A stretch of 64,000 nucleotides of DNA from Saccopteryx bilineata (lineage: Eukaryota > Chordata > Mammalia > Chiroptera > Emballonuridae), in assembly GCF_036850765.1 (NCBI RefSeq), contig NC_089501.1, positions 14,980,997 to 15,044,996 on the forward strand, given 5' to 3'. The notes under the pieces were generated by a model that saw only the letters and a list, made by a program, of their open reading frames with translations, did no database searches and had not been told where the DNA came from. This document shows, one piece after another, positions 54,884 through 59,129 of the stretch (position 1 is its first letter; each line of letters opens with the position of its first letter). Both the position numbers and the translations under genes were made by a program.

Positions 54884-55549
54884 AAGGCATACTTCATTCT
54901 GTTGTGCTTCTCAGTACTGCAGTTGACAGTTACTGCATTTCTTAAAAAATAAATGAAGGTTTGTGGCAACCCTACATGAAGCAAGTCTACTCGTGCCATT
55001 TTTTCATCAGGCTCATATGATGGTTAGCAGTTTTCAGCACTTAAGTTTTTTGTTTTATTTTGTTTTTAATAGATAGAAAAGGGGGAGAGAGCGAGAAAAT
55101 CAATTTGTTGTTCTATTCAGTAGTGTCACTGATTGCTTCTCATATGTGCCCTGACTGGGGCTCGAACCAGTGATGTTGGGGGTCAAGCCGGCGACCCGGA
55201 ACTCAGGATCAAGCTGGTGACCTCGAACCAGTGACCTTGACTCAAGCCATTGACTCCAGGATCAGATGGTGACGCTGGGCTTCAGCTGGTGAGCCCAGGC
55301 TGGAACCAGCCACCTTGGCACTCTGGGCTGACACTATCCACTGTGCCATTGGCCAGAGCAATAAAGTACTTTTTTAAAGTATGGCATTGTTTTTGTAGAC
55401 ATAATGCTATTGCACATTTAACAGACTACAATATGGCATAAACATAGCTTTTAAATTCAATGGGAAAACAAAAAACTCATGTAATTTGCTTTATTGCCGT
55501 ATTCACTTTATTGCAATGGTCTTTAACCAAACTTGTAATATCTCATCTT
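54884..55549 (+). mobile_element. Tigger1-like DNA transposon, internally deleted, hosting a SINE
   Basis: 5' end 'ggcatacttcattctgttgt', 'aatgaaggtttgtggcaacc', 'gcaagtctactcgtgccatt'. 3' end 'aataaagtactttttt', 'tagacataatgctattgcac', 'atttgctttattgccgtatt', 'tgcaatggtctttaacc'. These match the two ends of Tigger1 with the transposase region missing, so it is a nonautonomous derivative. A SINE lies at the deletion. Confidence 0.85.
55049..55359 (-). mobile_element. Bat tRNA-derived SINE, GCTTGAGC-repeat type, antisense
   Basis: Reverse reading: GCTCTGGCCAATGGCACAGTG, 'gatagtgtcagcccagag', several GGTC / CTTGA blocks, 'gggcacatatgagaagcaat' and a tail. Located inside the Tigger-like element. 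Confidence 0.8.
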
Positions 55550-55572: not shown

Positions 55573-55590
55573 GATAACACTGGGGAACAA
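55573..55590 (+). repeat. 5' terminal motif of the unusual element, copy 1
   Basis: GATAACACTGGGGAACAA directly at the junction with L1. An identical 18-bp copy lies exactly 400 bp further in (55973-55990). Confidence 0.9.
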
Positions 55591-55972
55591 TTTAATGATG
55601 AACTGAATTTAATGTTTAATATCAGTAAACAGGTTATGTGGTTGATAGATTTCATTCCTTTTACACATTGTTATTACAAATCTAATTTAACAGTCTTATT
55701 TTATATAGTGGTCTTTTGTAATAGTAAAATCCTTTTGGAAGCTGGCAGGGGTATAAGTTACATATGAGGATACATAATGAGTTCTATAATTTTTTTATTG
55801 CAAATTATTCCCTTTAAGTGCAACAGGAGGTGGTATAAAACAGGAAGAGAGCAAATAACTCCTAACATTTCTCTTGATCTAAACTTATTATTATGATTGG
55901 GATTTTAAACAATTATATCTAACTTTTCTATTAGAACAATGAAAATTGGTTTTATTTTAAATTAGTAGTTTG

Positions 55973-55990
55973 GATAACACTGGGGAACAA
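55973..55990 (+). repeat. 5' terminal motif of the unusual element, copy 2
   Basis: Second copy of GATAACACTGGGGAACAA. The sequence beyond it (T-rich, then TGTTGCATGAGG) resembles the inverted 3' end better than copy 1 does, so this may be the original end of the full-length element. Confidence 0.9.
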
Positions 55991-56303
55991 ATTTTTTTTC
56001 ATTTTCTGTTGCATGAGGTTTTAGAACGGTTTTTATATATTTCTGCATCGCTGATTCCAAATCTGAAATTTGTTTTTTTGGTGTATGCTCTAGTTTTTAT
56101 GCTATTTTAATTTTTTTTGTTGTTGTTACAGTTAATGGCATGCATTGGTTTTTAAATTGGAGTTAAAGGGCAACAACTCTTGGATTGAACATAACCACAA
56201 AGCAATTAATGTTTTACAAACATCACTTTTACATAATTGTAGTTGGTTTTAAATGTAAAAAATTATTATCGGATAAAAACATCCTCTTATTTAAGATTAA
56301 ATC

Positions 56304-57960
56304 ATGGCTTCTTCGAGTAGGTGTAAATGTAAGAATAGTCCTGGCACCTTCTGTTACATATGTGGCTGTTACACACTTCAATGTCAAAGGCGCAATATTT
56401 CATCATTTGTGACACGTGCATATATTGCCTATTTTCAAGTTCCCTTTGGCGATCAAGACAAGAATTGGACTCCTCATATTGTATGTCATAATTGTGAGGA
56501 AATGCTTAGTGACTGGACAAAAGGAAAACGCAAAGGAATGCCTTTTGGTACTCCCATGGTTTGGCGTGAACCTAAGAACCACAGCAGCAGTGACTGTTAT
56601 TTCTGTCTGATCCATACAAAGGGCATCAGCAAGAAAAAACGGCATATGATCGCATATCCTAATATTCCTTCAGCAATACGACCTATCCCACACTCTGAGA
56701 CACTCCGGTTCTAGTTTTCAATGGTTTTATTTCTTCTAAGGACGAAGAAAGTGAACATGGTGATCAAGTATATTTTGATAAGATGCATAAGGAACTGGTT
56801 GTAGAATCTGAAGGGTCTTTTTCTGATGCCAAGCAGTCATTAACCCCTCAGCAGTTTAGCCAACCCAAATTGAATGACCTAGTAAGAGATTTGGGCCTAT
56901 CAAAGAAAGCAGCTGAGTTATTAGCCTCCAGGCTTCAAGAAAAGAATGTACTTCACCGGTCAGCTAAAGTATCCCATTTCAGGAAGCATGAACAAATTTT
57001 TGTGGACTTTTTTCCAAAGACAAACACTTTGTTTACTGTCATGATATCAGTAGTCTTCTCAGCCAGCTAGGTGTTACCACTCACAGTCCATCAGAATGGC
57101 AGCTATTTCTTGACACCGAAACGGTGTCAAATGACAGCTCTAAATGGAGTCTGAAATGTGTTCTCCTACACAACGGTAATGTTTATGCAGTAGTTCCAAT
57201 TGGTTATTCAACTCATCTGCGAGAAGATTATAATGACATAAAAACTGTCCTCGACTTTCTGAAGTATGAGGAGCATAACTGGATCATTTGTGTGGATCTT
57301 AAAATGGTAAATTTCCTGCTAGGACAACAGAGAGGTTTCATGAAATATCCTTGCTTTCTGAGTTTGTGGGACAGCTGAGCTCAGGAGAAATACTGGACAC
57401 AGAAGAGTGGCTGAAACGTGAAGCTCTGGAAGTAGGGATGCAAAATATTGTGAATGAACCTGTAGGTAATCGAGACAGGATCATTTTCCCCCCACTTCAC
57501 ATCAAACTTGGCTTAATGAAGCAGTTTGTTCAGGCTTTGAATAGAGAAAATGAATGCTTTCATCATATTATTTCTGCTTTTCCTGGCTTGTCTTTTGAGA
57601 AGATAAAAGCAGGTGTATTCGATGGACCTCAAATTCGAACCCTCATACGTGACGAAGAATTTGCCAGGAAGATGAATAAGGCAGTCTTTTGTGGCAATTA
57701 CAAAGAACTTGCTTGGCAACAAAAAAGCAGAAAACTATGAACTTCTGGTTCAAAGGATGCTGTTGGCTTTCCGCGACATTGGATGTAATATGAGCGTTAA
57801 GATTCACTTCCTGAACAGTCAGTCACCTTGATAAGTTTCCCAAAAATCTTGGAGCTGTTAGTGATGAGCAGACTACTGCTGGAGCATCAAACGACATTGT
57901 CCTCAACAAGTACACAAATGCAAGAGCTACAAATGCAAATTTTTGCCTGAATAGACTTTA
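56304..57960 (+). pseudogene. Decayed transposase-like gene of the unusual element
   Basis: The first 136 codons from ATG 56304 are open and encode a Cys-rich N-terminal domain with CYIC, HIVCHNC and DCYFC pairs, a likely zinc-binding region, followed by the conserved-looking FGTPMVWREPKNH and YPNIPSAIRPIPHS. Coding similarity then continues in other frames after shifts near 56703-56712, 57030-57045, a stop/shift near 57376, a shift near 57700 and one near 57820: FLKYEEHNWIICVDLK, GQQRGFMKYPCFLSLWDS, FPPLHIKLGLMKQFVQAL, CNMSVKIHFLNS, NLGAVSDE. The C-terminal part is lost or scrambled. I recall this protein type as uncharacterised proteins repeated in arthropod and cnidarian genomes. A transposase fold is inferred from conserved D, H and E positions, not shown. 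No functional product is expected. Confidence 0.7.
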
Positions 57961-58269
57961 AATAAGTTTTGCGCAAATTTTATGATTAAAATAAATATTT
58001 GAATATGTTCTATTTTGAAATTGTAGACAAATTCTGATGCAATCATATCTTTTAGTGTATTAGTGTATTATTAGCCACTGCATTATATAAATTATCATAT
58101 TTTCACAAAGATGATGCCCAAGAAGACATTCTACTTCATTATGTTAAAATGTTGAAAATTTTACAAGATGAAAACATAAAATCTTGAATTGCAAAAAAAC
58201 TGTAGCTTACAGAGAAAAATTAATGTCAGATTTGATATCAGTACACTCGAATTAGCTAAGAACAAGTGT

Positions 58270-58305
58270 TTCTGTGCATGCAACAAAAATTTTATTTTCC
58301 AGTGT
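58270..58305 (-). repeat. 3' terminal inverted repeat of the unusual element
   Basis: Reverse complement starts ACACTGGAAAATAAAATTTT and contains GTTGCATG. It pairs imperfectly with the 5' motif. L1 sequence resumes immediately after it. Confidence 0.6.
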
Positions 58306-59129
58306 AATCAATGTCACTATTATCAGAGAAATGAAAATCAAAACTACAATCAGATACCACCTCATGTTCACTAGGATGGACTTCACCAAAAGACAAGAAA
58401 TAAGAAGTGTTGGCAACAACATGGAGAAATGAGCCCTGTACACTGTTGGTGGAAATGTAAAACGATATAGCCACTGCGGAAAACATTATAGCAGTTTCTC
58501 AAAAGATTAAAAATAGAATTACTATATGATCTATCAATTCCACTTCTGGCTACACACTCAAAAGAATTGAAAGCAGGGTCTAAAAGAGACAGTTGTATAA
58601 CCATGTTCAAATAAATAATATAAAATATGTTCATGGCAACATTATTCACTGTAGCTAAAATATGAAATCAACCCAAGTATCCATTGACATGAAGGGATAA
58701 GCAAAATGTTGTATACATACAATAGAATATTATTCAGCCTTAAAAAAATCCTTATGCATGCTTAAACATGAGTGAATTGTAAAGACATTACACTAAGTGA
58801 AATAAGCCAGTAACAATAAAACAAATACTACATGATTCCACTTACATGAGACACTTAAAATCACAGAAGCAGAAAGTAGACGATGATTGTCAGGGATTGG
58901 GGAGACGAATAAGGAGGTATTGTTTCATGGACCGAGTTTCAGCTTTTATTAGACTAAAGTGCTATAGAGATGGATTAGTGGTACACAGTATTATGAATGT
59001 TTTTAACATCCTAAACTGTACACTTAAAAATAGTTCAGATGGAAGATGGTAAATCTTGTTACATGTATTCTGCACACACACAAAAATATAAACATGGAGA
59101 TAACTCCTCCACTCCACACTTTATGTAAA

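Follow-up and report, generated by a model that had tools for sequence, protein, structure and literature searches.

A fossil Chapaev3-type DNA transposon in the bat Saccopteryx bilineata, with probable horizontal gain and spread of an internally deleted derivative

One locus in the window, a stretch of 64,000 nucleotides of the Saccopteryx bilineata genome, raises the question of how a DNA transposon of a type unusual for mammals came to lie inside an L1, to which family it belongs, and how it acquired its present form. The sequence-only reading had described a discrete 2.73-kb element with inverted ends and a single decayed gene, younger than the L1 that it interrupts. Joining the flanks revealed that the host repeat, which we take to be an L1, was broken at 55577/58305 by a single insertion, and that the discrete insertion unit (55578-58304, 2,727 bp) has a 3-bp TAA duplication on each side. 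As the insertion splits the L1, its younger age was upheld, and the inverted pair of ends and the gene with the quoted sequence blocks were both recovered, the latter spread over several frames. Just upstream of the insertion the same L1 is presumably interrupted by a Tigger1-like fragment (~54885-55546), which we take to be split in turn at ~55050-55355 by a bat tRNA-type SINE-like piece.

The length of 2.73 kb did not hold for the element itself. A second, internal left end was found at 55978, and a search of the host genome for the coding part, in which 40 of 3364 first-look candidates were scored, found 48 matches. In a comparison with the 20 best-scoring places besides the window's own, the alignment with the window started at 55968-55992 in 18 of the 20, and none extended further out; L026 aligned from 55973, weakly there (81% over 183 bases), and L028 only from 56327. 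In most copies the left end reads CACTGGGGAACA immediately after the target duplication. Because the other genomic copies begin there, the start of the element was put at 55978, which leaves 2,327 bp as the transposon proper (Table 1).

Table 1. Coordinates of the features of the insertion in the window
Feature	Position	Strand	Remark
Left target-site duplication TAA (in A[TAA])	55575-55577		
Outer left-end stub CACTGGGGAACAATTT	55578-55593	+	Same sequence as bp 1-16 of the family consensus
AA between stub and copied flank	55594-55595		
DNA from the flank of another family member (C12:18,822,696-18,823,080)	55596-55977	+	
TAA target duplication of that other member	55975-55977		Within the copied flank
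Chapaev3-type DNA transposon copy, 2,327 bp	55978-58304	+	
Left terminal inverted repeat CACTGGGGAACAAATTTTTT	55978-55997	+	
Decayed transposase gene, M at 56304	56304-57961	+	Split by frameshifts and stops
Junction of shared 76-bp deletion, GAGCAG/ACTACTGC	57871-57872	+	
Right terminal inverted repeat ...CCAGTG	58285-58304	+	
Right target-site duplication TAA (in [TAA]T)	58305-58307		

The DNA outside this internal end begins with a 16-bp copy of the element's left end. The ~382 bp that follow had one other match in the 2.61 Gb searched (very common words skipped), on C12, immediately 5' of a further full copy of the family and including that copy's TAA; the copy bearing the matching flank lies 3.8 Mb away. 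The simplest reading of the extra 5' piece is a gap-repair footprint. The window copy would have inserted at A[TAA]T in the L1, its left end would have broken later, and repair templated by another family member would have run on into the template's flank, adding ~382 bp and leaving the 16-bp stub outside. Alternatively, the whole 2.73-kb unit may have moved by macrotransposition, as a composite, from C12:18.82 Mb with the stub as its left end, and the outer stub, the right end and the TAA on both sides do resemble the outcome of a single transposition event. However, no stub is present at the C12 donor site today, and outside CpG the flank common to the window and C12 is less diverged (13/383, 3.4%) than the element (131/2193, 6.0%; p = 0.04). 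The window and C12 elements have 13 derived changes in common, which is the top of, and not above, the range of 4-13 found for 20 other copies, so that a clear excess is absent. We consider a composite origin unlikely, while taking it seriously, and favor gap repair, for which the support is the one marginal test of divergence (p = 0.04).

The consensus of 21 copies has a single open frame of 549 codons containing CFLC, PPLH and HFLNSH. The ends of the family (CACTGGGG...) are terminal inverted repeats that begin CAC and finish GTG, and its target sites are A[TWA]T. Both ends were readable in 48 of 56 loci (L010 and L043, counted as two loci, are one copy). Identical 3-bp flanks were present in 23 of these 48, being TAA or TTA in 23 of 23 and standing in an A..T context in 16 of 23. 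The flanks were non-identical in 25; the reading takes the longest pair of ends, and in at least L011 of this group the ends were wrongly paired, its true flanks being TAA on both sides, while others are mutated or unexplained. Across 40 relatives C354, C357, L402 and H403 are invariant, H511 and H516 are conserved in at least 90%, and D281, D335 and E530/E533/E543 (P0002 numbering) are also conserved. In the window copy, the second C of C(2)C and the last H of H(4)H are mutated or out of frame.

These properties agree with the account of Chapaev3 in excerpts of PMC4079192, where the ends are CAC...GTG, the motifs are C(2)C, LH and H(4)H, and TWA is duplicated with A before it and T after it. 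The element was assigned to Chapaev3 (CMC/Transib superfamily) by comparing its ends, target sites and motifs with that published description. The suspicion of a transposon type unusual for mammals was thereby borne out. The sequence-only reading knew of no mammalian family, but there is a precedent: the excerpts of PMC4079192 (2014) place Chapaev3 in a single mammal, the tenrec (Conan). Transposon names were absent from the listed homologues (120 of 2037 listed), no Pfam domain passed the cut-off in the six frame pieces or in four full-length relatives, the best E-value in a profile search of solved structures was an unconvincing 0.64, and no sequence match was obtained to solved RAG1 or Transib chains. 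The available text of PMC4411706 puts Chapaev3 in one group with Transib and RAG1 and describes for them a complex zinc finger (Chapa), to which the N-terminal cysteine pairs of the bat protein probably correspond. From conservation and analogy, we propose that the transposase combined N-terminal zinc-binding cysteines with a DDE, RNase H-like core in which the catalytic D residues would be those of LFxDSSK and CVDLKM and the third residue would probably lie inside the GERFHQD segment. Such an enzyme would cut the CACTG ends and insert into A[TWA]T, duplicating TWA.

The GERFHQD segment is missing from most copies read. In the relatives and in P0001 of Saccopteryx leptura the sequence is VSDEQGExFHQDLKTMEERYQGRWDxNMMADYCW or nearly so; in the window copy and its sisters VSDEQ is followed directly, out of frame, by the DYCW codons. 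The cause is a 76-bp deletion, bounded by two GCAG repeats that are visible in the undeleted copies, which takes out the GERFHQD...MEERYQGRW...MM segment and shifts the frame. The 76-bp segment was absent from 44 of 51 loci (42 scored together, plus L014 and L016 read individually, with L010 and L043 again the same copy), present in six (L033, L034, L037, L046, L051 and L062) and unread in L039. Since 30 of the 51 loci were picked by likeness to the undeleted P0001, the share of undeleted copies is probably inflated. Of the glutamates, E533 and E543, each conserved in at least 90% of the 40 relatives, are inside the lost segment, and E530 is outside it (P0002 numbering).

For 33 deleted copies N/S was 0.94 of expected, the observed S being reached in 28 of 300 simulations. 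The six undeleted copies gave 0.74 (1/300 simulations), or 0.87 (48/300) minus L033 and L034. The deleted copies evolve close to neutrally, with little sign of protein-level selection, a pattern consistent with a derivative mobilised in trans by the scarcer complete copies. We suggest that, early on, one copy lost the 76 bp between the GCAG repeats and probably with it the catalytic glutamate, and that undeleted copies then moved this derivative in trans until it became the bulk of the family, the window copy included; most copies would thus probably have spread on borrowed transposase. If instead the deleted form were not parasitic, its 549-residue product would have been active itself or would have acted on the family as a self-repressor, in the manner of KP in Drosophila P elements. 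The consensus does stay open for 549 codons despite the deletion and retains the N-terminal cysteines, both conserved D residues and one E (SDEQ), but the removal of both E533 and E543 and the absence of clear purifying selection in the deleted copies make an active or repressing product improbable. Among the undeleted copies, L034 (C4:288,233,833-288,235,521) has an uninterrupted 572-codon frame and is ~3% diverged; its domestication was considered and is not favored, its LH motif being LY and its N/S signal weak.

An exact 24-base left end, TWACACTGGGGAACAANTTTTTTT, occurred 586 times, and its reversed control 0 times. The count gives an order of magnitude and not a census: changed ends are missed by the exact pattern, and one pair of the 100 listed places, C1:141,435,000 and 141,437,345, may belong to a single copy as its two ends. 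Divergence from the consensus outside CpG averaged 3.7% (range, 2.4-10.1%) in 21 copies, a value biased low because these were the best-scoring ones. Four of the 586, taken in order along C1 and skipping one copy already in the sample, were 4-6% from the consensus; two were complete, one was internally deleted in the gene and one was interrupted. The copies read were therefore mostly 3-6% from the consensus, with 1 of 25 at 10%. With a bat neutral rate of ~2.5e-9 per site and year, the age of the family would be roughly 15-20 million years, which would place the gain after the bat families had diverged, as far as this approximate rate holds. Activity began before the split of S. bilineata and S. 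leptura, because the insertion L033 is common to both.

Two observations on individual copies may be added. L014 and L016 (C1:6.18 Mb and 5.82 Mb, on opposite strands) have 90 derived changes in common, the next pair having 20, which suggests that an inverted segmental duplication, and not separate insertions, produced them. L044, L051 and L061 are all broken at consensus 1828-1842 (TTAAGATTCACTTCCTGAA). A retroelement insertion shared in the family was considered and rejected, since the three inserts differ from one another, two of them being SINE-like with A-rich tails; the site appears as a target hot spot.

The sequence-only reading had described such proteins as abundant in insects and cnidarians and had proposed horizontal transfer into a bat ancestor. 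A protein search returned 2037 relatives, of which 120 were listed and seven of these organism-named. The top match listed was an S. leptura protein (95% identity), and listed proteins without a host name reached 78%. Both groups were present among the 120 listed, as the stick insect Bacillus rossius (P0039; 74% identity over 75% of the query) and Hydra (55%), along with the frog Ranitomeya (59%) and the worm lizard Rhineura and snake Erythrolamprus (57%). A Chapaev3-like protein (P0019, 66%) came from a bin labelled Pseudomonadota and is probably from a eukaryotic contig mislabelled or binned with a bacterium. The only mammal in the seven organism-named rows of the 120 listed was Saccopteryx. 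In a tree of 40 proteins, the bat protein was joined to the partial stick insect sequence with support of 98/94, the frog and snake grouped together elsewhere and the lizard fell with Hydra; the protein phylogeny differs from the host phylogeny.

The young copies and an insect as the closest named relative outside Saccopteryx make horizontal gain the best reading of these sequence comparisons. Chapaev3 would have entered the Saccopteryx lineage (Emballonuridae) horizontally and then multiplied to at least several hundred copies. Gain by a bat lineage is thus most likely, as had been proposed, though the age of the copies points away from a general bat ancestor. No donor is named, because the nearest named relative outside Saccopteryx among the 120 listed reaches only 74% protein identity, and no vector is suggested, because a scan of IMG/VR with two peptide patterns and alignment gave 99 pattern matches and no confirmed relative. 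Transfers of transposons in bats have reportedly been treated by Paulat et al. in 2023. Old DNA transposons are present in mammals, as in the nearby piece that we take to be Tigger1-like, but vertical descent of an old repeat from a placental ancestor is strongly disfavored, to the point of being nearly negligible, given that the copies are mostly 3-6% from a consensus whose frame is still open, that a family of placental age would be many times more diverged, and that Saccopteryx is the lone mammal in the seven named rows of the 120 listed. The explanation as a whole, a fossil cut-and-paste Chapaev3 that entered Saccopteryx horizontally, spread, gave rise to a deletion derivative and left a repaired copy in the window, is in our judgment very probably correct.

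One undeleted copy may have had a different fate. P0001 is a predicted S. leptura transposase-DLGAP5-like fusion protein, whose residues 566-681 match 76 proteins (P0001 included) with mammalian DLGAP5 as the informative names. In S. bilineata the matching undeleted copy is L033, with L063 (C4:45,175,781-45,179,789), and the exons downstream of L033 on the same strand are 89-91% identical to P0121 (S. bilineata DLGAP5); they seem to be a duplicated DLGAP5 segment and not the P0121 gene. In L033, AAGAGCTAC has become AAGAG/GTAC, a splice donor, by a C-to-G change, and this donor with the acceptor TTTTTTCCAG/GAGCAGC gives the exact KRSSIVED junction of P0001, in frame. L033 differs from P0001 at 14 of 565 residues, one of these being a stop at codon 105 in place of the lysine of P0001. 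Among 41 copies it had the lowest N/S (p = 0.002, uncorrected), but it was found through its likeness to P0001. A conserved open frame under selection was not found for the fusion, the stop at codon 105 interrupting it in S. bilineata. We regard the fusion as a candidate, a gene prediction in S. leptura that is broken in S. bilineata and known from DNA alone. We consider it improbable that a Chapaev3 transposase captured as an exon of a new gene gave a lineage-specific DNA-binding fusion protein while the family itself was overrun by a catalytically dead derivative; if true, this protein may act on the family's ends, which number in the hundreds in that genome. The fusion is a directly testable candidate for mammalian capture of a RAG1-related transposase.

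In the literature searched, no Chapaev3 has been described in bats, and as far as that literature goes this is the second mammalian case after the tenrec. New here are the 76-bp deletion in most copies read and the DLGAP5-like fusion candidate. The dominance of an internally deleted, frame-keeping copy offers a clean case in which to ask how deletion derivatives end invasions. Among known systems, Transib and RAG1 have CACTG-type ends and a similar H(4)H spacing, with a target-site duplication of 5 bp and not the 3 bp found here. The available text of PMC4411706 assigns them to the same superfamily as Chapaev3. The Chapaev3 group itself (Conan, Merrow and Garfield, as excerpted from PMC4079192) has the same CAC...GTG ends, the same C(2)C, LH and H(4)H motifs and the same TWA duplication flanked by A and T, and Garfield (2,289 bp, 556-aa transposase) is alike in size to the ~2.3-kb bat element. 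Repeated horizontal transfer is documented there for the group, and the host of Conan, the tenrec, is likewise a mammal. The differences are the bat host and the transposase deletion common to most copies read here, and, in a likeness drawn by description only, the single frame in place of the two exons of Merrow and Garfield. Comparable too are the hAT and piggyBac elements of vespertilionid bats, which in the excerpts of PMC4298943 also represent recent horizontal gain of DNA transposons by bats, at a similar divergence (2.16-4.81%), but in other superfamilies and another bat family. The bat transposon invasions in the literature searched are vespertilionid and of other superfamilies, and Chapaev3 adds the sheath-tailed bats to them.
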